Position numbers and translations under genes: made by a program. The notes beneath the pieces were generated by a model that saw nothing but the letters and a program-made list of their open reading frames with translations, searched no databases and was not told where the DNA came from. From Mugil cephalus (Eukaryota; Chordata; Actinopteri; Mugiliformes; Mugilidae): a stretch of DNA of 64,000 nt. How positions within the stretch are numbered: position 1 is the first letter of the stretch; each line of letters opens with the position of its first letter. The stretch is taken from positions 16,685,913 through 16,749,912 of the forward strand of contig NC_061783.1 of assembly GCF_022458985.1 (NCBI RefSeq), given 5' to 3'. Below are positions 3,700 through 55,602 of this stretch, one piece after another.

Positions 3700-6060
3700 A
3701 AGTTTAGTCTCATAATTGTCAACACAATATTCCTCCATGACATAAAGTTATATAGTGTAAACTACTTTGACACAGAGTCTATGTTGAAGAAAAGAAGAAA
3801 TTTAATGGAGGTTAATGGCACAACACGGCTAACGAGCTAGGATGCTAGCCTCATTTTAGGAGTGTAGGTCAGCTGCTAGACAAAACAGCAACAACAAACA
3901 GTTTGGTTAATTTCATGCAATTTGTTGACAATAAGAAAAATATAGAAAAACAACATTTAAACAGAAAAACTGACTTCTTTTCTTTTTTCCTTTTCTTTTC
4001 TTTTTTTTTTTTTGTAAATAGTAGCAGCGTGGACAAGCGCAGTAAAAAGACTAAAAATTAGGGTGACCTGACGTGCCCGATTTCCCTATTATGGATGACC
4101 TGCCCCCCGGCTAAAGCTGTACATGAAAATGTCCCAGATTTTAGCATAAAATTACGGTTATTATGGTCATGCTTAATTCTTTTATATACATATATATATA
4201 TAAAGTCATATAAATGTCTGGTCACTTTATTAAAAATCACAGAACAAAATGGAAATTAGTGAAAGAAATTAGGAGAGCAAATGGAGAAGGTATAGTTGCA
4301 TTTATGGGCCTTACACAGCCATAAATGTCACTGTTGGTGAATGGATTCCCCAGACGTACAAAATAAAATATAATATGTCCGTCTGTCTGTCTTCCAGATG
4401 AGTCTTGCCCTCGATAGAAGCCAGTCACCTTCGCCAAAATTGCCCATGTGATGAGATCACCAGCATATTACTGAACAAATTTGGGCTTTGTATTTTATTT
4501 GGACTGATGTGTGTTTGTAATACATGTTGTGTTTTTGTGTTATCTAGCAGAGGGATGAATGAAATGTACAGGTCAGTTTGGGTCATGCGGTTGATTAAAG
4601 GGACATAACTGTGTTTACTGGGAAACGATATCACCTAGTTTACTTTCAGGGACACTGAGGGACAGTTGTGAATGTATAAATATGGTACTATGTCAATAAT
4701 CACCCCTCAGGTGTAAACTACAGTGTGACAAATGATCACTTGTCTATGCAATATAAGAATAAAAGGGATATTATTTTGTAGTTAATATGTTTAATAGTTT
4801 CTTCTATGTTGATACCTTTATAAACCTGAGTGAGCACAGAAAAAGTGATGTTTATATCATCTGGTTTCATGTGCCTGCTGGATTTGCCCATACAGATGAT
4901 GTGAAGATCAGCTAGTGTAGCTACTTCAGACCAACCTCCTCTCAGCAGGTGTTGTGTTGCATGACCCGGGTTTTGGTGCAATGTGTAAGCTGATGCAGAT
5001 TTCCTTTTTTTTAATTATTATTATTATTATTATTATTAATAATAAATCGGGTTTAACGAAGCCTTACTGTTCACAAAACAACACCAGTAACAGTTCAGCA
5101 AAATGTGCATGGGTTTACATGAAGGTTTTATTTTGTGATTTTTGTCATGTGGAAGTGAAGAGTGAGTGAAAGTCCATGAGAAGAAGATTTGATGACATAA
5201 ATCATTCAATTAACAGATTAACTTCATCATAATACGACTCCAGCTGTGCTACATTTATAATATTACATATATGTATACAGAGTGTTTCTTGTTTATAAAT
5301 TAAAGTTTTAATTGGTAAAATATGTGCAAACTCTGTATTTTTTCTATAACAATGAAAGAAGCTGGCTTCAAGAAAAAAAACTAATAAATATTTCTGAAAA
5401 CTGTTTTGTCTCCACTTTTATTTGTTACAGACACAAACAATGTTTTTTTCTATGAATTTATAGCTATCACTCTACAGAAACCTAAAACCTCAAGTGTGAT
5501 ATTGTCTATATAACCTCATTGATATTTGTGTGCGCACGTAACTAGTTGTAACAGCGACACTCTGCGGACAGATGCGGTACTTCACCAAATCTCAGAAACA
5601 ACATCAAAAGTTTTTACTTGTACGACGTAGATACTGAAGAGAGACACGAAGCCAAAATTTTAAACTGCAAAGAGATCTGTTGTTTTGGATTAAAACCACA
5701 GACTGTATATGAAAGATATTTATTTATAGTCTATGATTTTAACCCGCTTTGTTGCGGTTCTTTCAACTTGTTCTGGACACAATCAAATCTATCATGTTCC
5801 AGTATTGTTGTTGTTTGTAAATGAGTAGAGTAAAAACGTATAATCACAAATTAAAAAAGAAGTAATTTAATGAGTATGAAAACATTCACACAGATATAAG
5901 TATTGCACTTGGGAAAAGACCAGAATTACAGAATACAGAATACTGTATACTTGTATACTTATTACTTATTTATCCATTACAGAATTCGTACAGTGAAGTG
6001 AAATATAATAAGAATAGCTAAATAATTATGCTGAAAAAAAAAAATAAATAAAAAACAACA
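3700..6060. other. Intergenic region with low-complexity AT-rich sequence
   Basis: I see no gene. The stretch holds an (ATT)n tract at about 5010-5040, poly-T and poly-A runs near 4000 and 6035, and scattered short open frames without coding character. Confidence 0.6.
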
Positions 6061-6558
6061 ACAACAACGCTGAGGCGCTTTCACAGTTTTGGGCCTCCCG
6101 GCTCCCCTTACCACCTCGTGAGCGAGCTTCACCTCAGATACCTCGGAGCGCGCGCGTCCACGCGGCCGATTTTACGATCCCCGAAGAGGAAACCGAATCT
6201 GACACAACACCGGAAACATCCCTACGTCAGCACGTGCGCGGACTCCCAGCCTGAGTCCAGTACGTGAGTGTTTGCATGTGTGCAGCTTTTGGAGGAGAAT
6301 GAGAAACGCGGAGCGGGGCTGCGGGTTTGTTTTTGTGATTGTTTGAGTCGTCGTCTGTCGAGCCATGAGGTCTCTCGTCTACAGGCAGCACGCAGAAGAA
6401 GAAGAAGAAGGAGGCGGTCTGGGCTTCGCTATGGAGATCTGACCCTGTGCAGGACTGTGTTGTGTTGTGTTGGGGTGGAAAAAAAAAAAGTTGTCGGGAA
6501 ATAAAGGCTAAGCTGCTTCTTTTTTTGTGCCACACATGCAACTCGGAGCCGAGGAAAC
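6060..6558 (+). promoter_or_regulatory. Promoter and 5' leader of the carnitine acetyltransferase-like gene
   Basis: The sequence becomes GC- and CpG-richer (for example GAGCGCGCGCGTCCACGCGG near 6146) than the AT-rich DNA to its left, as expected of a vertebrate promoter. A short upstream open frame (6365-6442, 25 codons plus stop) and a GAA repeat precede the chosen start at 6559. No TATA box is obvious. The transcription start cannot be fixed from sequence alone. Confidence 0.45.
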
Positions 6559-9500
6559 ATGATTTTGTGGAGAATTCACCCAGGAAGCTGCAGAGCATGG
6601 CTGTGTCGGGTGAGTTTGTTGACATGCTGTTTCTGTATAACACTATTTAATGACAACTGCCATGTCTTCCACACTTCCTATTTTGATACGCCCTACAGTC
6701 GCGCCCTTCTTTTTCTTGGCACTTGGTCAGACTTTATTTGAAGTCTGCGCACTGTGTTGACATGCAGCTGAACTATAACCGTCCTTAGACAAACTTTTAA
6801 TGTGATATCATTGCATAAGTTTTCTTTTTCCCTCCTCCTCCTCCTCCTCCTCCTCCTCCTCTTGCAGGTTTCATTGAGGCAGGATCAGTGCTTCTTCTCG
6901 GTGTCTTCTTCCTCGGTGCCTCAGCAGCCGGTGCCGCCTCTGGCCCAGACCCTGCAGGGTTACCTGCGGGCTCTGGAGCCCCTGCTGCCCCCCGACGAGC
7001 TCAGCCACACCCGCAGGATGGTGCAGGAGTTCGGGCGGCCCGGTGGTCTGGGTCCGCACCTGCAGGAGGGGCTGGAGAGGAGAGCCAGACTCACCAAGAA
7101 CTGGGTGTGTGTCCGCACCGGTGTGGGAAATGAGACACATGTCGGAGCCACAAAACAAAAATAATCCTAAAAATACGCAAAATAACTTGGAAAGTGTTCC
7201 TAAAAAATGGCGGTTAAGTTTCATTTAATTAATGAATCGGAAAATGTTTGCTAAAATAAAGTCATTCTGTTATAATAAATGTGATAATTCAGACAAAACA
7301 TGGCTTTTAAAGACCTTAGGTTCAAAAACTTTATAAGTTTGTGCTGCTAACATATTTAGAGAATGGACTGAGGTAAGTTAAGATGTAGTGATGCGTGATT
7401 TTTCCAAATAAGCATTTATGCCATCAGTAAATTTCTTAATATTATGTGTGCGTGACTCTTCATCTGTGTTGAAGAACTCTTTTAGATTAATAAAAATCTG
7501 ACTGACGTGACTCAGTTTAAAGAAAATACATTTATAACTTGTGTTTCTTTTTAAATACACGCAGCACTAATCACATCTTTTAAGCTGATGTGTTTTAAAT
7601 GACTTTGAGATAAACAAAAGTTTTGCATTTATAAATCCAGAGCCAGTCTTTCTAAAACTACATTTTTTTTTCTTTTATTATCTGACTGTGAAGTTTAAAG
7701 CTGATTTGAGGGTCTTTGCGTGTGCGTCCCTGCAGATCTCAGACTGGTGGGTGCAGTGGGCGTACTTGGAGAGCAGGCAGCCGCTTCCCGTGCACTCGAA
7801 CCCGGCCATCTCTCTGCCCAGGAGAGACTATAACGACTGGAGGAGCCAGCTGGTGTGAGTCCACACGTGCCAATATGGTGACGCAGCACATGAGTCCCTG
7901 TTGACTTGTTAAATGTTAGTCCTGGGAGAAAAAAAGAAACTCAGGAGTGAATAGTCAACGTTTTCATTTGGAAAATTCTGCTTAATCAGATTTGGCAATG
8001 TTTTTTGATCATTTCAAATGGTGTAGACTAAATTTAAGATACCGATACTGTCTGTGTTCTTCAAACTGCTTTCACTTTAAGAGCTGAATGCTTCCAGGAA
8101 TGTCCAAACAACACTGTGTATATTATAGTGTCGTGTCTTTGTGTCATCGTTCACTTATGATCTGCGTTTATTATGTGAATCCGTGCTGCCATTTAAACCC
8201 TGTAGCATAAACACTGTCATATAAACTGGAATAATATAATGTTTAGTCATTCCCTGTCATTAATAATCTCTACTATTCGGCGCCTATAGACTGTTCGGGT
8301 GAATATGAACTCTATTTATGGTAAAGTTGAGGTTTAAAAAGTGGGAATGTGCCGCATAATAATAGCAACAATAACGTGTTTGTTTCTATTCAGGTTTGCT
8401 TCCAAGCTGATAGCAGCTGTTCTGGACTTCAAGGCCAAGATCAAGACGTAAGTCTAAATTTATAACCAGACAACGTTCAGTTTTGAGTTTAAAAATTCAA
8501 ATGCTATAAGAAAATGCAATAAGACTATTCTTTGCAAGTGTTGCTTTAATGTCCGTCTTTATATTTATTAAAATATATTTGAGCAGCATTATTGTTGTGT
8601 TGGCCATTCAGCTGAAATTAATAGAGTTACTTTATTTTATACTTTAATTAAACCTTTAATACCTTAATTTTGCAGCAAAATCACTTCATAAAAGTAAAAT
8701 ATGTCACATGAAAGAAGTTTCTCAACAACTATAAACTGTATAACAATGAAAATAACCAGTAAATACAGGAGAAAATGAAAATATTGAACCTAAATACTTA
8801 AAATACCTCAACATAGGTTCAATAAAACTCTATATTTAATGGTGCGTTGTGACAATTCTCTTATTGCTCTCTTGGTCCAGTACATCTCATTACAGCTTAA
8901 TTAAACCAGTTCCTTATGAGTAATTGTGACAGTTATGAAAGCTGGGTTTTCTCCTCATTAATCCACTGCTGGCTTTCACCAGCTTCTATTTCTGTGCCGT
9001 AACCTTTAACCTGACTGGCTTCGACTTGTGTTTCTCGGCCGTATGAAGTTAATCTGTGTCTAAATTTAGTTTCCTGCTCTGACTGTAACAGAATCTCAGC
9101 TACTGAAACGTTCACCCCCCCGTCCCCATTTTAGTGTTAGATGTAAACTTAGTCTTTGGTTATGGGCCGTTTATCAAATTTAGATATTTCTGTCAAATGT
9201 CCAGCTTCTCAACTTCCACGACATACAACATTCACTTAGAATAAAACAAATGTCAGTTCATCAAATATAATGATCTATTGACGACCTTATTTTTTGATGT
9301 AACTACTTAATTAAATATTATGTGGTTTGTCTATGAGTTGCTAACTCCAAAGTTACAGTACATTTTCTCTCTGGAATAATTTAAATAAATGCTAAGACCC
9401 AAAGAAACGGAAAGCAAAGTTGTTTATTATAGAAAATATCTGTATGTTGTACATATCTTTTAAGGAAGTTTTATTTATATCAACTAGAAAGAACATCATG

Positions 9501-12500
9501 GCTTTAATGACCTGATAACAAACCAAAACGGGTTTTTATGTCTAAAACAAGAGTTGGTTTCTGCTGTTCCTTATCAGCTCTCAACTAACGGTAGCTTGGA
9601 AAACTTTATAGTACACGCACACACACAGATAAGCTGATGCCTTCTAGATAATGGAAGTGTAAAAAGTTGTCTGCTGTAGTGAATGTGGTTGACTGGTTTA
9701 CGGGTCACGGCAGCAACATGAAAATATAAATAAACATTGCCAAACAGATGGTCTGTTTGTCTCAGAGTGCAGATAAAGCCTGGCGTACAGCATGAAATGA
9801 CCTTTATAATGTAGTGTAAATAACAGTGAGCCTAATATAGATCCCTGAGGGACGCCTTTCTCAACCGAATGTAACTCTTTCAGCATCAGAACTTTTAAAT
9901 CCATCAGGGAGATAAGACATGACCCGGCTGTGAGAGGAAACATCGAGCCAACACAGTGCTGCTTATTTAAAAGACGTTATGATCATCTTAGAAGACTCAG
10001 ACAGATCTATAAATTTTGAATTTTAGCTTTAACAGAATTTTAGCATCAGGTGCAAATGAGGGTCAACAAATTGTGTTTTACTTTTAGACATTTATCAGGG
10101 GTTTACTGACCTAATACCTGGATCAGTACTGGCCATCACATGACTAAACAATATTATATAATGTTATATTCATTCATTCAGTGCATCTCACAGATATCAG
10201 ATCTCAATGTGACATATACAGGTTTGGAAGTCTCGCAAAAACATTCACCGAGTGGGTGGATCAGTCATTATAACGCTAATAAAGTTTGTTTTCTCTGTGT
10301 GTCCGTCAGCGGGCAGCTGCCGGTCGAGTACATGCGAGGGAAGCCTCTGTGCATGGAGCTCTACCCGCGCCTCTTCTCCTCCTGCAGGATCCCCGGCCCC
10401 AAACACGACCACATCGCCCACTACGGCCGCTCACGGCGCTCGCCAACACACATCACAGTCGTCAGGAACTACCAGGTGGGTTCTGCAGACGGACAGACAT
10501 CACATTTTTGCCCCAGTGACAGTCGTGTGTCGCAGCTGCAGCCTCACCTGCAGATTTGGTTCACTTTGCCAACTGTTAAGTTAAACTATTAAGTTTCTTA
10601 AGGACTAAACCGATTAGAGGTCGTCACTGGACGTTTTGGCTGAAGGTCATCCTGCGAGATTAGAGATTAACCTTTGCCTGAGACTGCTCTCTGGACATTT
10701 CAGCAGATGTTCTTACTATTAACTCTGATTTAAAGTATATTTTGCATTAAAATGTGCATCAGGAGCATTGGATCCATTACGTGTTAATGGAAGAAGTATT
10801 TACAAACCTGAAAACTTTTCTCGTGTTTACCATTTTGTTAACGAGTCACCTTTACATTAAGATATTATGTGTTCAGGCGTTGAATATAGAAGCTAACTCT
10901 AAGAGTGTCTGCAGCTAATAGTCTTTTAACTATGTTTAATGTGCAAAGTATGTTCTTAAATTTACATGTGATCAGTTGGTCTCTAAAATATTAGTGATTT
11001 GGAACAGTTTGCATAAACTCACAGGGTATCACATAGTTTCAGTGTTTTTTTATTATAAGAAATAAAAATGTAAATGTAAAAATACATAAATTACTGCTGT
11101 AGTGGTCAAAGAAAACCATTTGTTTAAGTGTATTAACTAATCAGCTTTTTTTAATATTCAGTTTGTGTCTGGATTTGACAATTTGGACACAAAAAGCTTC
11201 ATCTCTCCAGCATCTTTGAGCCTCCTGACGTCTTTCCTCCTTTTTCTAGTTCTTCCAGCTGGAGGTTTACAACAGCGACGGCTCGCGGATGACGGAGAGT
11301 CAGATCCACTCACAGCTGCTGAGGATCCGGTCTCAGTCCTGGAAGACTGACAAGGAGCCGATGGGCATCCTGACCAGCGAGCACCGCCACACCTGGGGAC
11401 AGGCCTACAACCGCCTGCTCAGAGGTACGTGACATGACCACTTACATACCCAAGAAAGGAGACTAGGCGGCATTTATACTGGCATATTTTAACCCATTTA
11501 TTACAAGACAGTTCATTACCAGTCCATGATTCTTTGAGCTCCTTTATTTGCAGCCATTTAGCTCCGAGACAAAAACTCAGTGACATTGGTCACTGGATCC
11601 TAAATGTGGTTTTCTTCTTTCTGACTCAGATAAACTGAACCAGGAGTCGGTGCGGCTCATAGAAACAGGACTTTTCTCCCTGTGTCTGGATTCTCCAGTC
11701 ATGAGGATATCAGATGAGAAGTATGCACAAACACACACGTTTGTATGGCTGTCTTTGTGAGGACAATTCATTGACGTAGTGCATTCATAGTGCATATTGC
11801 AACCTTTACTCTAATACCTTAACACTTAAACAGTCTTGTAAAGAAGCGAGGACTCGGCCTTTGCACAAATGTCCTCACTCTTATATTGGACCACTCAAGC
11901 TGGTCCTCAGAAAGATAGCTTTACAAGAGCAGATACACACACACACACTCTCAGGTATTTCTGTGTTTGCTAACATTGAGTAACCCCTCTGTCTGTGCAG
12001 ATATCATTGTGTCACTTCCTTCATTTGAGCTGTTGCTACTGGTTGGCAGATTTATCTCTAAAGATTGTGACGGATTATTTACTGGCTTTAAGTGTCGTGT
12101 TTGTTCCGGCTGTGATTGACAGGTACGCCAGTCGTAAAGCAGCGCAGGTCCTACACGGTGGCGGGACGTTCTCCAACAGCGGGAATCGCTGGTTTGACAA
12201 AACGCTGCAGGTGGGAGTAAAATACATGTGATAAGAAAGGGTGTGAACAGGCCAGCTGATCGGAGTGGGCTGACTATTGTCTTTGTTTGTTTGATCAGTT
12301 TGTCGTAGGAGAGGACGGCTCATGGGGTCTTCTGTATGAACCGGCCACAGCCGAGGGTCCGCCCATAGCCACACTGCTGGATCACATCCTGGAGTACTGG
12401 TGAGATAAAGAGTCCCTAGGTTGATTAGTGGGGTTTGGATTTTAAAGGTTTGATTTATTTTTAGTTTATGTTTTTTTCCACTTTCCCCAGAAGCAGCATC

Positions 12501-15500
12501 AAAAAAAAAGAAGATTAAACTGAAGTAACCAACTAGAGGCAGATTCCCACTTAACTGTTTACATGGACACTAAATAAAATGATCTGATAAGATATATGTT
12601 GAAGAACATCAATCACAGGAAGAGAAGAGTTTTTGATGAGTCTACCAGAAATATAACAAAAGAAAAAGAAGCAGTTTGTTCCCTCATTTTATTAAGTGCT
12701 ACGTCTGTCTTTCCTAGAAACTGGTCACTAGAGATCGACCGATACAAGCTTTGCAGACAGGCACATCCACAGGCAACCCTGTGCTGCTCCAGACACTACG
12801 GACCTGTGCAGCCCATACATGTCCCCTCCCCCACTAGCAGAGTCCTAAATTTTACTGTTGTTTTCGTTAAGTAGGAGTTTGCTAGCAGGCAAACTAATAG
12901 TGCAGGTTGTCAAACAACCACTGTCCACAGTTTAGATTGAAGCTGTTGTTAAGCTATGTTCTTTTATCAGAACAAAAAACACACGTCCTGTGGCAGTAAA
13001 ATATTGACAATCAGAGGCTCAGAGTAACTGAAAAAAAACGAGTCCACTCACATCTGTTTGTCGTCTATCAGTTGTCACCAGTTCCCAGACTGAAACATCA
13101 AACGCACGTCAAACACGGAGCCTGATAAACTTTATCTAAACATCCATGAATACACAGGACTCCTGCTTCTGTTTTTGTTGCTGCAGTTTCAGTTGGAAAC
13201 CGAGCTTCTTAAAATCCAAAGCTCTGACACATGTTTATCTCTTTCTAATACTTTGCCTTTCTCTCCCTTCTTGCTCACAGCGGTCACATACGATTTCCAA
13301 CTAAAACAAAATCCTCTACAACATGTAGCTGCACAGTTTTGTGGGTTGCCTTTAATGAATATCTTGCAAATATCTTTCGACCTTAGTGTTATATAATGTG
13401 GTTAACATGTTAAAACTCTGATATTTGTATTTACAGCATGCCCAAGTTTCTTTTTGTCTTTTAGTGTCAAATAGTTAAAAACAGTTAAACATCTCATTAA
13501 TTTCTCAGTCAGTGCTCCAGTAGTATAATTAGGAAAGTAAAATTCAGGTGGAAAATTGCCACATTCGTTTCAGAGGTTTTCATATATTTTATTTTCTTGT
13601 CTGCAGTGAGAAGCCAGACCCAAAGAGGGCGCCGCTGGTCCCTCTACCGATGCCCAAGAAGCTCTACTTTCACATAGACAGAGAAATCAAGAGGGACATA
13701 GAGCAGGCCAAGCAGAACCTCGACATGTAAGCCTTCCACAGTCTCAGTTGTTTAAGTTGGAGTTAAATTGTGCAGGACACAGCGTCCGCCGGGTGTTTGC
13801 TCCAAAATCCAACACAGCTGGAACAAACCCGCTCTGGAGGAAAGCCGCAGGAGAGTAAACACATTTATCTTCTCCGTGTTTATGTAACCTTGATGAAAAT
13901 AATTCACCCTTTGACTTAGCTGCCTTTTTCAATCGCTCGAAAGTCACTCTTTTCTATCTGCTGCTTTTTTCTTTTTTTTTTTTTTTTACAACCACAACTA
14001 AACACAACTTCAGAGCATTTCTAAATCGTTCTAAATGAGATGTTTTCTGCTCAAAAACTGAATTGTGGATGTTGATACAAACATATAATTAGAAGAATTT
14101 TGATGCTACTGTTGAGAATTCATATAACTCCTGTCATACAGTGATTTATTGTTGCAGCTGTTGACAGATGTTACACTTAAAATGTCCTCATGTCACCTTA
14201 CAACAATATTTTATTTGCCTTTAAGTGTTACTTAAATGCATAAATCCGTGCTAAAAATTGTGACCTAACGAGTTACCACAGTCTTCAAAATCTAATATAT
14301 TGAAATATGAGAAGAGATGGGCATTTATTGATATTGATGCCATTATCGATTCTGCTTATCGATCCGGTTCTTTATGGATTCCCTTATCAACTCTTCCTGT
14401 GAGTTTTGTGGTGTAGAAGAAAGTAGGCGTTCGTGGTTTTGTGTAAACAACAGCAATTTTATTGAGTTTCTAAACAAGAGATAAGAGCTTGTGTAAGAAA
14501 ACAAACGGAAAATTGGTCACTGGATCCTCCCTATCGCGTGATGTGAATAAAAAAGTAGAGATTCTTCTTCTATCGTTTTATGGCGGTTGACAAACAACTA
14601 TTTAGGTGCATTACCGCCACTTTCTGGACTGGGACGTAAAGATTCAGCACAGAAAGTATCGTTAGTTGGAATCGATAAACACAAAGGCTAATGACATTGA
14701 TGAATGGAACCGGTTCTTTTAAAGAACCGCTTATTAATGCCTATCTCTAAATGTGAAACCATCAAAGTTATGCAGCTTTCTGTCCTGTCATCACAGTCCA
14801 AATTCACGATTCCTCCCTGTTGCACAAACGCTCACTCGTGTTTGCAATCTCTCTGCAGACTGATCAACGACCTCGACGTCAACGTGTTCAACTTCAAGAG
14901 ATTTGGCAAAGAGCTTCCCAAGCAGCACAAGCTGAGTCCAAACTCCTTCATCCAGGTCGCCCTGCAGCTCGCCTACTACCGGTCAGTAGCTGCGTTTCCA
15001 TTCCATGTCCACATCACAAAATATTTCTGTGCTTTGTACGTGTTTCCATTGAAATAAGCTGTAACTCTCGTGAAGTTTCGTCTTGTCGCTTTGAGGAAGA
15101 GGGACTTCAAATTAACTGGTCACATGACCCCCTGCATCATCTCCAGTAACACCACTGACAAGAATTGCGAAAAAAAGAAATGTTTTGAGGATATTTGAGA
15201 GGTTTTTCGAAATGCAGGCATTTCTATTTTTTTTTATTGTGATATTTAGGTTTTGTGCATTTCTAGGGGTAATGGAAACGCAGCAAGTGACAGCGCCGTC
15301 CCCACTAACGTCAGTGAAGACTGATGCTACATTTCTGTTAGAGAATAATAACAACCATTAGAAAATGACACTGTTATTATCATGCAGCTTCAGTTGAACT
15401 CCCTCAAGTTTGTGGATTTTACAGAGTTTTAGACATAGATACGTAAACAAAGGTTAAATGTTGGATTAATGTTAAGAATGTTTTCATTTGCCACTTGTAA

Positions 15501-18244
15501 ACTCCATGATCATCTTTCCCAAGCGCCGTTGTTGACGGAATATACTACAGATCACAGCGTTTTTGTGATCTCCTTGTTTCACTCAGCTGAAAGAGAGGGT
15601 TACCTAGGCAACCAGAGAATGGCACATCCACTGGCGACTACAGAAATCTGCAAATTGTTGTGTGTTTTGTCAGGTCTTAAGGTTGAGTACAGATGCTCTC
15701 TCTACTCAGAACTCCTCAGATGCTTGAACTGTACCTACAGCTTCAGATACATTTACTTTTCACAAAAAAAGTATTTTGCTCTCAAGCTCTGGAACAGGAA
15801 GCAGAATGTGCATTAAGGTGGACTCAAGATTCAAGTTGTTTATTGTCACATGTAAAGTAAAAACAACAATCTACACTAGGGGTGGGAAAAAAAATATCAA
15901 TGTGGCAATATATCGTGATATTTTTTTTTCCCAATACAATGATTTTGAAAGTCTGAATATCGGTTTTGTGCTGAATGTGAACAACTTCCGCACTTTTTCT
16001 GTACAAGTGCAATAAATTGGAAGTGAATCATTTGGAGTAATATTGTTTTTTGACTTGAATTATCGCTGTCATCTGCTGTACATATATACAACGTGTATTT
16101 TAAGCTGCATTTAAAATATCTCAGTGAGTCATGTAGAACATTGCAATATATCATATGATATCATAATATCACAATAATGTATCGTATCGTGACTAACGTA
16201 TCGTGATACGTATCGTATTGTGAAGTCCCTGCCAATACCCAACCCCAGTCTAGACCACATAATGACATTTTTACTTTGCAAGTCTGTCTCACTAACAACA
16301 CTAAATTAATGGGAAATAGAGAAAGACCTACAATAGAATAGAAAAATTAAAAAACCTGCATCGTTGGTGTTTATCTGATGAACACAGCCCTTATAATAGT
16401 ATTTTATTTCTTCCTCCAGAGTCCACAACGAGGTCTGTCCTGCCTGTGATATCGCCACTCAGAGGATGTTTCGAGGAGGAAGGACGGAGTACATCCGCTC
16501 GCCCACAAATCAGACGCTCAAATTCATTCTTGCCTTTGACGATCCATCCGTATCCGTGAGAATTTTTATTTATTATTTATTTTTTGTCTGCAGGTGATTA
16601 AATAGCTGAGAAATGTTTAGTGGCTTGTATGTGTTGTGTTGCAGAGGGAAGCAAAGCTGGAGCTGTTCAGAGAAGCTGTTGATGCCTATGCAGCTCTGAC
16701 CACACAGGTTAATACCAAATATATTTTATCTTTATTTGTATTTTTTTAATTATTTTTACGTGATAAACACTCATCTATTTGCTGCTTTTCTCTTCTGCTC
16801 AGGCGCTGAAAGGACACGGTATTGATAACCACTTGCTGGGGCTCAAGCTGCAGGCCATCGAGGAGGGACTGAGCATTCCCAAAATCTTCATGGATACAGC
16901 CTACGGCCTGGCGACGCACTGGAAGCTGCGCACGGGACAGGTTTGTGTTTGTCGCTCAACAGGAAGCGGGACTTTTGTTGTTCATTTTATGAATATTTGA
17001 GAGGGAACTTTGTCCCAGACGATAACATCTGTAAAGTTGCTGCCATCACGTACACTATATTGAGGGAATTTCCAGTAATCAAGCTCTTCTCTTTTCTAAA
17101 GTGACGACCGGCAGATTTTAAAATAACTTGTTTTATACGATGCTTTTTATGACCTGTTGTAATTCCCCTGCTTTTTTACAAGTCACATTTTATGTCAAAA
17201 CACTTTTATAATGTAGTGACCTACTGAATCTGGTGACTCAAACTCGATCAGAGCTTTTCTTTCACTTCACATTTTCACATTTTAGCCTTTCAAGTCAGTG
17301 TCGCTCTGAACATTTTACATACAAATGTTTTTATATCAAGAACAACCAGATAGGTCTGCTTTCTGCTCTACGTTAAATTATTCAATCGTTTTTTTTAATC
17401 TTTAAACACAATTTTCCCAGTAGAAAGTTGCTATAACTCCGTATAAAGATCAGTGGAGAGAGGAGTTTCAGAACAAAGTCATCCTCGTTTGCTTTTTACA
17501 ACAATTTGCTGAAGTTGTTGTGAATTGTGAATTTGTCCGATGTATTCGACCTGTTAGGGACTATTTTAAATGTTGGGTTTTTAAAGAAAATTGTGTCACA
17601 AAGACTATTTTCACTTATTCAGTTTTTTATTTTGTGAAATTAAACAAACACATACATTGAAGTCTTATTATTTTATCCACTAACAATGTTCTTGTTTAAT
17701 ATGTTTTAATTGTTTAATTGTATGATATTGGATGATAATAAGGGTCAACTCTTAGCTTAATCAGGATTATTTGATCGTATTGTATTATTTTTTAATTTAT
17801 TTTTATTTTAAATAAAACTGCTGTCTGATATTTTTTATAATTAATACTTAATTCACTTTAATTCCATCTGATTAACAGCGGTTGTTATAAAAATCCACAC
17901 CATCACACCTCAATGTTTTTATGAACATTTAAAATAGTCTGAAAGCATCACAGTTCTCAGGGTAAAAAATGAACTTTTGATTTTATTTTCAGCCTCTTGT
18001 AGTAAAGTCTTCTTCGTGTTCTCCTGTCGTTTCCCTTCAGGTGCCTGCTAACACAGACAGTGTGATGTGTTTTGGGCCTCTCGTCCCCGATGGTTACGCC
18101 GTGTGCTACAACCCCCAGTCGGACCACGTCCACTTCTCCATCACCGCCTTCAACTGCTGCGAGGAGACTAATGCGGAAACACTAGCTCGCACAGTGAAGG
18201 ACACCTTGTGTCATCTGCATGAGCTGCTGCAGCCTACCGTGTAG
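6559..18244 (+). CDS. crat: Carnitine O-acetyltransferase-like protein, predicted pseudoenzyme (15 exons, 621 aa)
   Basis: Exons: 6559-6609, 6868-7104, 7736-7854, 8394-8447, 10310-10475, 11250-11424, 11630-11720, 12123-12210, 12299-12399, 13607-13726, 14859-14981, 16420-16555, 16645-16707, 16803-16940, 18041-18244. All phases join and the total is 1866 nt; human CRAT is about 626 aa. Family hallmarks are PVEYMRGKPLCM, GPKHDHIAHYG, THITVVRNYQ, LHGGG, NSGNRWFDKTLQ, LVPLPMPKKL, KLSPNSFIQVALQLAYYR and FGPLVPDGYAVCYNP. The start is chosen because exon 1 (MILWRIHPGSCRAWLCR) joins exon 2 in phase 0 and gives a basic, acid-free, mitochondrial-type N-terminus. Active CRAT exchanges acetyl groups between carnitine and CoA. 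Here the catalytic YEHAxAEG is YEPATAEG, the STS motif is RTG, and carnitine-site residues are changed, while the CoA-binding lysines in FGKELPK remain. The C-terminus QPTV lacks a peroxisomal PTS1. Family membership is certain; activity is doubtful. The gene symbol gives the family and not a proven orthologue. Confidence 0.93.
6832..6862 (+). repeat. (CTC)n microsatellite serving as polypyrimidine tract
   Basis: About ten CTC/CCT triplets run to within a few bases of the acceptor TTGCAG that opens exon 2 of the CRAT-like gene at 6868. The repeat therefore forms the polypyrimidine tract of that splice site. Confidence 0.85.
9698..9960 (-). mobile_element. LINE reverse-transcriptase fragment
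   Basis: On the minus strand this intronic stretch (intron 4 of the CRAT-like gene) encodes KGVPQGSILGSLLFTLH, the conserved GVPQGSxLGPLLF block of non-LTR reverse transcriptases. A degraded YADD-like region follows. Only a few hundred bases remain, without either end. Confidence 0.7.
12728..12750 (+). repeat. Short remnant of an interspersed repeat
   Basis: CTAGAGATCGACCGATA in intron 9 of the CRAT-like gene resembles the start of a widespread vertebrate interspersed element. Too little is left to assign a family. Confidence 0.25.
14311..14748. mobile_element. hAT-like non-autonomous DNA transposon (MITE)
   Basis: The ends are imperfect inverted repeats: AGAGATGGGCATTTATTGA on the left and, as reverse complement, AGAGATAGGCATTAATAAG on the right. 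Flanking 8-bp direct repeats AAATATGA (14303-14310) and AAATGTGA (14749-14756) differ at one base, as expected for an old hAT insertion. It is about 438 bp, non-coding, and lies in intron 10 of the CRAT-like gene. Internal ATCGAT and GGTTCTTT blocks recur in inverse order. Confidence 0.7.
15827..15868 (-). mobile_element. 3' tail of a non-LTR retroposon (minus strand)
   Basis: TTCAAGTTGTTTATTGTCAC is the reverse complement of a typical fish LINE/SINE tail of the form GTGACAATAAA...CTTGAATCTTGA. It lies immediately before a hAT-like MITE in intron 11 of the CRAT-like gene. Confidence 0.5.
15877..16247. mobile_element. hAT-like MITE with GGGGTGGG ends
   Basis: The left end reads TAGGGGTGGG and the right end, as reverse complement, TGGGGTTGGG. 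The inside is rich in TATCGTGATA-type palindromes, typical of a well-known teleost MITE group. Flanks ATCTACAC (15869-15876) and GTCTAGAC (16248-16255) match at six of eight positions and may be a decayed 8-bp target duplication. It lies in intron 11 of the CRAT-like gene and is non-coding. Confidence 0.65.
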
Positions 18245-18994
18245 GACCCACAGGATGAACCCACTCGCACTATGTTTTCTGAAAACATTTTGTGTCAGTC
18301 TCGATGATGTGGCTTTTTGTCATTCATGGCACTCGTCACCAGAGCATTTAATTCTGGGAGAGTGAACTCGGCGTCTCTGATGTGATTTTGATGCTTTTAA
18401 AGCTTTGGGGAAGCAATGTATTATCCTGTTTCTTGCTCAGTCAAGCTGCTTTAGCTGCAGAGTTGCTACAGTGGATTCGTTTGGAGGAATCTGATGCTAC
18501 CGAGTCTCTGAGTGAAGGAAAGTTGAAGCCAACCTGACACTCCAGCATTAATCCGAACAAGCCAAAGCGTGAACTGACTGCACTCCTTTTACAAGTCATG
18601 CGATGACCAGTATTTTTCTTGTATCTTAATATTTTTCCCATCAGAGTTGATTGACAAATGTGTTGGATCCCTTTGATTTTTGTAAAGCATAGAAATGGAC
18701 CAAGCGACAGAAAGCAAAAGGAACCGCAGCTGTTTTTCAGGCCTGGTTTTCTGGATGCGTTTTGAATGTGAAGAGTTGTGGCCCTTCAGCAGGACGTGTA
18801 GTTCTGGTGTCAACTTGCAGGACTGGGGACTGGATAATAAAGTCCGTGATCACGTGACTCTTGTGCAAGTGGTTATGTGTTCGCGGGTGCTCTGACAGGG
18901 TGGAGGACGGTGTTTGTTTTTGTATTGATCATTGATATTGACTGCTTTCGTTACTGATATTCCTACAGAAATCACTGAGCTATTTCAGATATGC

Positions 18995-53499: not shown

Positions 53500-55602
53500 A
53501 TCAGACAAACTTATCTTTATTAGCAGGATAAGTGCCCCAGTCTTTTAAAACTGCTGTAATTAAACATTTACTTAAAAACCCCACTCTTGACCCAGATGTT
53601 TTAGCCAGTTATAGGCCAATTTCCAACCTTCCTTTTATCCAAGAGCTGGTTGATCATTTAAACAGAAATGGTTTGTTTGAGGAGTTTCAGTCAGGTTTGA
53701 GAGCTCATCATAGTACAGAAACGGCTCTGGTTAAAGTTACCAACAATCTCCTCATGGCTTCAGACAGTGGACTTGTCCTGCTAGATCTCAGTGCTGCAAT
53801 TGACACTATTGATCACAGTATTCTACTACAGAGACTTGAACGTGTGATCAAGATTACAGGAACTGCATTAGACTGGTTTGAATCATATCTGTCAGACAGA
53901 TTCCAGTTTGTCCATGCAAACAACAATTCTTCTATATATAAGTAAGCTATGGAGTTCCTCAGGGTTCTGTGCTAGGACCAATATTATTCACATTATACAT
54001 GCTTCCCTTAGGCAATATTATTAGAAAGCATGACATAAACTTCCATGCTATACAGATGATACCCAGCTATATATATCCATGAAACCAGATGAAACTAATG
54101 AGCATGCCTTAAAGACATAAAGGCTTGGATTACCTGTAATTTTCAACTTTTAAACTCAAACAAAACAGAAGTTATTGTATTTGGCCCTAATCATGTCAGA
54201 GATTCATTATCTAATCACCTGGTTTCGTTGGATGGTATTACCTTGGCCTCCAGTACTACTGTAAAAAACCTCGGTGTTATATTTGACCAGGATATGTCCT
54301 TTAATTCTCACATAAAGCAGGTGACCAGGACTGCTTTCTGTTACCTTCGTGATATCATCAAAATTAGGAACATCCTTTTTCAGAGTGATGTGGAAAAAAT
54401 AGTTTATGCATTTGTGTCTTCTAGGCTGGATTACTGGATAATTAACTCATTACTGTCTGGCTGTCCAAGTAGCTCTTTAAAAAGTCTCCATTAGATTCAA
54501 AACGCTGAAGCCAAAGCACTGACAGGAATTAGCAAGCGAGATCATATTACTCCAGTTTTAGCTTCTCTTCATTGGCTCCCTTTAAAATCTAGAATTAATT
54601 TAAAATCCTCCTTCTTACATACAAGGCCCTGAAAGGCCTAGCTCCATCATATATGAAAGACCTCACAGTACCATATTGTCCCTACAGATCACTTCGATCT
54701 CAAAGTGCAGGCCTACCTGTGGTTCCTAGAGTTTCTAAAAGTAGAATGGGAGGTAGAGCCTTCAGCTATCAGGCTCCTCTCCTATGGAACCAGCTCCCAG
54801 TTTGGGTTTGGGAGGCAGACACAGTCTCTACGTTTAAGTTCAGGCTTAAGACCTTCCTTTTTGACAAAGCTTATAGTTAGGGCTGGACTTAACCATCCCT
54901 TAGCTATGCTGCTATAGGCTTAGGCTGCAGGGGGACGATGCACTGAGAACATGTCCTCTCCTCTTTCTTCTCTGGCTCCTGTCCTCTAATATGTTATCAT
55001 TTTATTTTCCATCTCTTATCATTTATTTTCTTTTACTAACCGCTGTGTCTCACTCATCTGACCTGTGGAGTTCTAAGCTACATCTGCTGTCGTGGCCTAA
55101 TTAACCAGCCCAGTCTTCATGGTCTGGAGTGCTTTGTATCAGACCTGTGGAGCTCCATGAACTACATCTGCCCCAGTCATCATGGCCTCCTCCAGTTGTC
55201 CACTCCTACCTAGATGAACAATTCTCCAACCTGCCCATAATTCCTGTTATACTCACAAACTGTCACAGATCATCAGCTATGTGTTATATTACTAGACCCT
55301 TCATGTTTCCTTCCGCTTGATGTATGGTATCTATGACAGAAGTTTGTTTATCTTATTTCTCCTGTTCTTCTTTTCTCTCTATCTTCTCTGTTTCTACCTG
55401 ACTGGCCTTCAGCAGACGGGTCCCTCCATATGAGCTGGGTCCTACTAAAGGTTTCTTCCTGTTAAAAGTGAGTTTGCTTTCCCACCGTCGCCCTCGAGCT
55501 TGCTCTGGAGGGTGTAGGCCGGTTTTTGTAAAGCGTCTTGAGACAATTTGTATTGTTATCGCTATATAAATAAAATAAAATTGAATTGAATTGAACTGAA
55601 TG
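53500..55602 (+). mobile_element. 5'-truncated L2/Maui-type LINE
   Basis: The plus strand encodes reverse-transcriptase blocks in order: ASYRPISNLPF (about 53605), LLDLSAAIDTIDHSILL (domain A), then [17 protein letters not shown] (about 53948, domain B), and a decayed YADD segment. These are followed by the C-terminal NLGVIFDQDMSFNSHIKQV, SSRLDYWI, HWLPLKSR and GRAFSYQAPLLWNQLPV. Coding is split by a stop near 53943 and frame changes, and the YADD catalytic motif is lost, so it is inactive. The end has TATAAATAAAATAAAATTGAATTGAATTGAA, a short-repeat tail typical of L2-clade LINEs. No endonuclease domain is present, so the copy is 5'-truncated. Confidence 0.9.

Follow-up and report, generated by a model that had tools for sequence, protein, structure and literature searches.

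The general base of carnitine acetyltransferase (CRAT) is His343 in the known mechanism, as set out in passages of PMC11852590; the same passages describe contacts of Lys419 and Lys423 with the 3′-phosphate of CoA and a bond between Asp430 and Glu453 in the CoA site, and the five residues named there (343, 419, 423, 430 and 453) match the letters of the CRAT numbering used here. In CPT1A the corresponding His is crucial according to part of PMC6092487, a source that also provides the nearest known case to the protein considered below: CPT1C, a paralogue of the same superfamily that binds palmitoyl-CoA with roughly 100-fold lower transferase activity and has another reported role. CPT1C belongs to another subfamily, however, is placed in the endoplasmic reticulum, and keeps its catalytic His, which passages of that report describe as needed for this role. 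In mouse, Crat is described in part of PMC4089027 as a single gene that lies divergently, head-to-head, with PPP2R4; in zebrafish, passages of PMC8919083 describe Crata with the PTS1 AKL and Cratb without a PTS1. A literature search covering titles and some passages, with most subscription journals outside its reach, returned no description of an inactive CRAT or of the gene described here; entries named 'carnitine O-acetyltransferase-like' are present in a salmon protein list and a catfish transcript list, without sequence detail in the portions retrieved.

Here we describe a CRAT-like gene of Mugil cephalus whose protein has lost the catalytic His and most of the carnitine pocket and has kept the lysines for the CoA phosphate; the His is present in all 11 of the other vertebrate enzymes compared.

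A complete CRAT-like gene and its relatives in the genome

The window, by which we mean the whole 64-kb stretch of DNA that was analysed (C14:16685913-16749912, from a genome of 634.8 Mb in 24 contigs), contains a complete CRAT-like gene on the forward strand at positions 6559-18244, with 15 coding exons that encode 621 amino acids (1866 nucleotides including the stop). All 14 introns are bounded by GT-AG and the reading frame has no internal stop. Our own spliced aligner, guided by human CRAT, yielded the same exon borders over 6916-18232, with no gaps across 585 amino acids. The original prediction had reported a carnitine acetyltransferase-like gene at 12299-16940; this segment corresponds to exons 9-14 of the gene, and the accompanying statement that 15 exons join in frame holds for the entire coding region.

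Coding exon 1 (6559-6609), with the ATG start, is placed by an open frame and a donor site only, and no homologue covers it. Exon 2 (6868-7104) follows from the gene model and, from 6916 onwards, also from the spliced alignment, and both sources agree on exons 3 (7736-7854), 4 (8394-8447), 5 (10310-10475), 6 (11250-11424), 7 (11630-11720), 8 (12123-12210), 9 (12299-12399), 10 (13607-13726) and 13 (16645-16707). Exons 11 (14859-14981), 12 (16420-16555) and 14 (16803-16940) are given by the gene model with residues assigned by alignment to CRAT, and exon 15 (18041-18244), from the gene model, runs to the stop codon TAG. A tblastn search of the whole window with human CRAT (E <= 10), which bears on whether a mutually exclusive exon encoding the His or a tandem copy is present, gave 13 matches, all on exons of this gene, and four further weak matches (E 1.7-4.2) that resemble chance.

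The protein matches the PF00755 profile from end to end (positions 2-573 of 574), scoring 619 bits where the cut-off is 22.3, which identifies the carnitine/choline acyltransferase fold. In a phmmer search against solved structures human CRAT was the top match, at 764 bits over 586 amino acids without a gap, and the whole fold likewise aligns ungapped with CRAT of human (1nm8) and mouse (1ndb, 1t7q and 2h3p) and with the CRATs that this fish encodes on C8 and C19. Pairwise identity falls from 55% with human CRAT to 38% with rat ChAT, 30% with mouse CROT and 29% with rat CPT2. Splice phases are common to the window gene and its C8 and C19 paralogues, apart from one extra intron of 402 bp (11721-12122) between exons 7 and 8. 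The counterpart of these two exons is a single exon of 179 nucleotides in both paralogues and of 170 nucleotides in both ChAT genes of the same genome; a gain of the intron in the window gene is likely.

Several further features are signs of a live gene, though none proves expression. A CpG-dense stretch on the forward strand (6001-6500) precedes coding exon 1 and is a probable promoter: two 400-bp windows, which begin at 6001 and at 6101, contain 31 CpG each, the highest count among 636 such windows in the 64 kb, and the observed/expected ratio is 1.22 at 6001-6400 versus 0.57 for the window as a whole. Polyadenylation signals lie 3′ of the stop, the first at 18836, although such hexamers are common in A+T-rich DNA, and third codon positions have 74% G+C versus 36% in the introns.

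A PF00755 search of the M. cephalus genome gave at least 80 exon matches (76 of 83 candidates were scored), which were grouped into 12 places. Two of these, at C8:19.65 Mb and at C19:22.66-22.68 Mb, proved on gene modelling to be CRAT genes that carry the mammalian CRAT residue at all 13 positions considered (107, 343, 347, 419, 423, 430, 452, 453, 465, 518 and 552-554), and the second, catalytic crat that the original prediction proposed to look for is thereby represented by two genes with intact active sites. Mammalian CRAT carries a PTS1; among the fish proteins the C19 CRAT ends in the PTS1 AKL, the C8 protein in AKH and the window protein in PTV. Matches to PTPA (PPP2R4) lie at C19:22.692-22.703 Mb on the forward strand beside the CRAT gene on the reverse strand, in a divergent, head-to-head arrangement, and no PTPA match was found near the window gene. 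Taken with the intact sites and the PTS1, this arrangement makes the window gene most likely a third gene, distinct from both crata and cratb.

Residues replaced and retained in the active site

Ungapped alignment places codon CCG (12341-12343, exon 9), which encodes Pro342 of the window protein, opposite catalytic His343 of CRAT, in agreement with the earlier report of Pro at this position. Both paralogues have CAT here, so the codon differs from each by the two bases that had been claimed, while the amino-acid change itself needs just one. Near the end of exon 14, LRTGQ (16926-16940) stands in place of LSTSQ, and the STS motif at 552-554 has become RTG (S552R, S554G), also as predicted. Beyond these, the active site and its surroundings carry five more changes (CRAT numbering): D430N at 14941-14943 in exon 11; Y452C, E453D and T467Y at 16445-16447, 16448-16450 and 16490-16492 in exon 12; and R518N at 16827-16829 in exon 14. 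Two of them prove little by themselves, since residue 467 is Ala in the C8 paralogue and residue 518 is Asn in all three ChATs compared. The latter is a point of likeness to ChAT, which nevertheless keeps the His, the STS motif, Tyr452, Asp430 and Glu453, unlike the window protein, and shares only the 38% identity given above.

Retained are Y107, E347, K419, K423, T465, T553 and F566, all as in CRAT. We take Y107, E347, Y452, T465, R518 and the STS serines to have roles in the CRAT active site, and on this presumed list the carnitine-binding residues Tyr452, Thr465 and Arg518 read C, T and N in the window protein, with one of three kept. In the CoA site, D430 and E453 are changed and both lysines for the CoA phosphate remain (K419 at 14908-14910 and K423 at 14920-14922, exon 11); the PKQHKLSP loop that contains them is identical to that of the C8 enzyme.

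That errors of assembly or base calling produced the active-site changes has a negligible probability: the data do come from a single assembly, but eight replaced codons spread over four exons would have to be wrong, six of the eight with two or three base differences from both paralogues, in exons that are otherwise open.

Loss of the His is not unique in the wider family, as two of 22 PF00755 relatives from prokaryote assemblies also lack it. The catalytic column is His in 20 of these 22 loci, one of which (L020) is a 126-aa fragment, and Pro in none; the exceptions have Gln (L008) and Tyr beside an alignment gap (L021). Both share the replaced His with the window protein and are distant from it: L008 has also lost K419 and K423, and L021 keeps both lysines and differs at most of the other listed residues. 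As a separate observation, L008 and four more PF00755 loci (L010, L011, L012 and L015) are without K419/K423, Tyr452, Glu453 and Arg518; four of the five are titled alphaproteobacterial, and it is possible that the group consists of pseudoenzymes or performs other chemistry. The fragmentary L020, titled as a Cycloclasticus symbiont of a sponge, has a PF00755 match over 2137 bases in which the best open frame is 126 aa, with a CPT2-like sequence surrounding the His; the long match with a short, CPT2-like frame suggests that this contig may be intron-bearing host DNA.

Constraint on the protein

We left out each sequence in turn and counted its changes at sites invariant in the remaining ones. 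The set comprised seven of the 12 PF00755 places in the genome and five chains of solved structures; the four other places that appear to be CPT1-like and an odd place at C20:165-169 kb were left out. The window protein changes nine of 67 sites that are invariant in the 11 other enzymes (Q172L, D215E, H343P, D430N, Y452C, E453D, S552R, S554G and G575A). Nine of the 67 are listed active-site residues (Y107, H343, K419, K423, D430, Y452, E453, S552 and S554), and six of these are changed versus three of the 58 others (Fisher p = 6e-5); if the 58 scaffold sites had changed at the active-site rate, the chance of three or fewer changes would be 5e-23. The scaffold is retained, and the active site is singled out for change. 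Other enzymes changed between zero and five sites: human and mouse CRAT and rat CPT2 none, rat ChAT one and mouse CROT four; and, from the same genome, C8 one, C19 two, C13 none, C16a two, C11 three and C6 five, two of the last being gaps at alignment ends. Across these 11 there is a single change at a listed active-site residue, T553S in the fish's own CROT (C11). An earlier count with the five chains gave 6/9 active-site versus 8/77 other sites (p = 4e-4), and the contrast is weaker when confined to the five residues published in PMC11852590, in the part of it available (3/5 versus 11/81, p = 0.029), the remainder of the list coming from outside that source. The original claim of good conservation over the remainder of the fold is borne out for invariant sites outside the listed active site but fits less well with an overall identity to human CRAT of only 55% and a long branch.

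These counts bear directly on the explanation that the window gene is a young decaying pseudogene, one that lost its function recently and whose frame is unbroken by chance of time. The branch to the window protein is indeed long, at 0.70 versus 0.17 for C8 and 0.29 for C19, and relative rate tests show it evolving faster than human CRAT in all three cases at p < 0.05 (73 versus 40 with ChAT as outgroup, p = 0.002) and in three of four on a second alignment; against C8 and C19, two of eight tests gave p < 0.01 and the remaining six missed 0.05. Neutral drift at the active-site rate, however, predicts changes at about 39 of the 58 scaffold invariants, and three are observed. There are also no indels over 586 residues relative to human CRAT, all splice sites are intact and the CpG-dense 5′ end is kept, and decay of this kind appears quite improbable.

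A dN/dS test on this branch had been proposed with the original prediction. In a branch codon model of five fish genes (580 codons), omega = 1 on the window branch was rejected (2dlnL 66.6), but with saturated synonymous sites and a branch that ran to the limit set on its length, omega itself carries little meaning: the fitted value of 0.0045 for the window branch is not believed, and a free-omega fit, in which two inner branches were at the boundary, was not used. The test moreover spans time both before and after the loss of the active site. A separate comparison took the sites at which human CRAT and rat ChAT have the same residue: where CROT and CPT2 both share it, the window protein has changed 14 of 86; where one of them does, 20 of 86; and where neither does, 36 of 76. 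Such a gradient is what would be expected under purifying selection somewhere on the window branch, and we consider it very probable that the protein has been under such selection.

The reading that we favour, at a probability of roughly 0.7, is that the window gene encodes a pseudoenzyme kept under constraint. It is supported by the intact frame and splice phases, the contrast between scaffold and active site, the rejection of omega = 1 on the branch, the CpG-dense 5′ end and the presence of two CRATs with intact active sites. The original prediction had concluded on a selected pseudoenzyme rather than a decaying copy; the evidence supports this in part, and stops short of proof for the word 'selected'.

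Descent and possible function

Phylogenetic trees place the window gene inside the CRAT clade and apart from ChAT, CROT and CPT2, with support of 99/99 in a 10-row tree and 100/99 in a 19-row tree, from which nine of the 22 prokaryotic loci were omitted as very divergent or fragmentary and in which L013 was trimmed to its last 640 aa. The position within CRAT is less clear. A topology that unites human, mouse, C8 and C19 to the exclusion of the window gene had a log-likelihood 0.40 above that of the free search (AU p 0.565), one that unites the window gene with C8 and C19 was 0.45 below it (AU p 0.403), and those that join it to C19 alone or C8 alone were 6.07 and 5.86 lower (AU p 0.117 and 0.131, respectively). 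None of the four is rejected, and the tree does not place the window gene relative to C8, C19 and mammalian CRAT. An orthologue search with the window protein found no relatives in 16 pattern stretches of a genome-contig collection and no pattern matches in viral contigs.

The neighbourhood of the gene is more informative. Upstream, the window contains the end of a phostensin-like (PPP1R18) gene (25.5 bits, cut-off 25), and downstream, over 20070-61622, PPT2-like and ribosomal S7/S5e exons are followed by DDAH-like and CLIC-like exons; a Ly6/uPAR-like exon, below the cut-off, also lies downstream. In human, PPP1R18, PPT2, DDAH2, CLIC1 and the LY6G6 genes sit within or next to the MHC class III region (6p21), and CRAT is at 9q34. 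The three phostensin/taperin matches of the genome are confined to C14:16.685 Mb, 192 bases upstream of the window start, and C19:19.32-19.34 Mb. BET genes occur at C14:21.19 and C19:17.76 Mb, among seven places of which one is on C8. RXR is present on three chromosomes: at C14:21.27 Mb (a weak match, E 3.5e-4), at C19:17.71 Mb and on C6. Both chromosomes are also among the 12 places with PF00755 genes. The pairing of phostensin/taperin, BET and RXR on C14 and C19 points to one paralogon, in which the best interpretation of the window gene is a second CRAT ohnologue; that it is a CRAT ohnologue in the MHC paralogon is likely, and it is probably an old, third CRAT copy of this fish.

With the general base His343 and the STS serines lost, acyl transfer by the known mechanism should end, and judged from its residues the protein would very probably be dead as a carnitine acetyltransferase. 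The R518N change, together with the loss of Tyr452 and Ser552, implies that the carnitine pocket cannot be as it is in CRAT. Binding of CoA remains possible in view of K419, K423 and the PKQHKLSP loop, whereas D430N and E453D, in the pantetheine part of the CoA site, speak against unchanged binding. The N-terminus is basic and the C-terminus, PTV, is without a PTS1, which makes the mitochondrial matrix a likely location. A well-kept scaffold with a rewritten catalytic site suggests that the protein probably binds or regulates something instead of performing catalysis.

One may alternatively postulate a new catalytic activity on the kept fold, with Cys451, Asp452, Tyr466 and Arg551 (window numbering) as new pocket residues. 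Several pocket residues are now polar or reactive (C, D, Y and R), and the long branch would suit such a change; Pro, however, is no substitute for a His that acts as general base (PMC11852590, in the passages cited above), and a second motif was not recognised. We regard this alternative as improbable. Against the pseudoenzyme reading stands that some annotated pseudoenzymes were later found to be active, USP53 being an example given in part of PMC12037411.

For the constrained pseudoenzyme that we favour, a series of steps can be proposed. A CRAT ohnologue surviving on C14, in the MHC class III-like paralogon, would have kept a full-length carnitine/choline acyltransferase fold; replacement of His343, the STS motif and most of the polar network that binds carnitine would have abolished acyl transfer; and the protein, presumably imported into mitochondria, could bind CoA or acyl-CoA by way of K419/K423 and leave it unconsumed, serving to sense CoA, as a decoy or as a partner in regulation. 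This role in CoA binding is put forward tentatively. A variant in which the protein serves purely as a scaffold or as a partner for pairing and takes up neither CoA nor carnitine, regulating the catalytic CRATs for example, is conceivable but doubtful: CRAT is a monomer in solution, and the lysines and their loop are kept as in the C8 enzyme, which count against it, while the D430N and E453D changes touch the CoA site and two paralogues with intact active sites are available in the same genome. Other pseudoenzymes do pair with an active paralogue, as passages of PMC10211241 describe for FAM20A and FAM20C.

In the broadest scenario, the MHC class III block would owe a second CRAT to a genome duplication in early vertebrates; this fish lineage would have retained the copy and made of it a mitochondrial, non-catalytic binder of CoA or acetyl-CoA that senses the acetyl-CoA pool or controls the catalytic CRATs, and mouse, with its single Crat, would have lost it. 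As a whole this chain is speculative and rather unlikely. If true, the gene would provide a natural separation-of-function variant of a central enzyme of acetyl-CoA buffering, in a fish that has two CRATs with intact sites, and an example of an MHC-paralogon gene that mouse lacks, its Crat being single according to the relevant part of PMC4089027.

Two minor observations concern other sequences. The odd place on C20 (C20:163500-171500, with matches at C20:165307-168743) holds a very divergent PF00755 gene that reads EHSAVDG around a kept His and has long simple repeats upstream; its open frame runs on into stretches that, by eye, we take to resemble an isoaspartyl peptidase/asparaginase-like domain. 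Within the window itself, open frames at 53532-54877 resemble, also by eye, a LINE reverse transcriptase.
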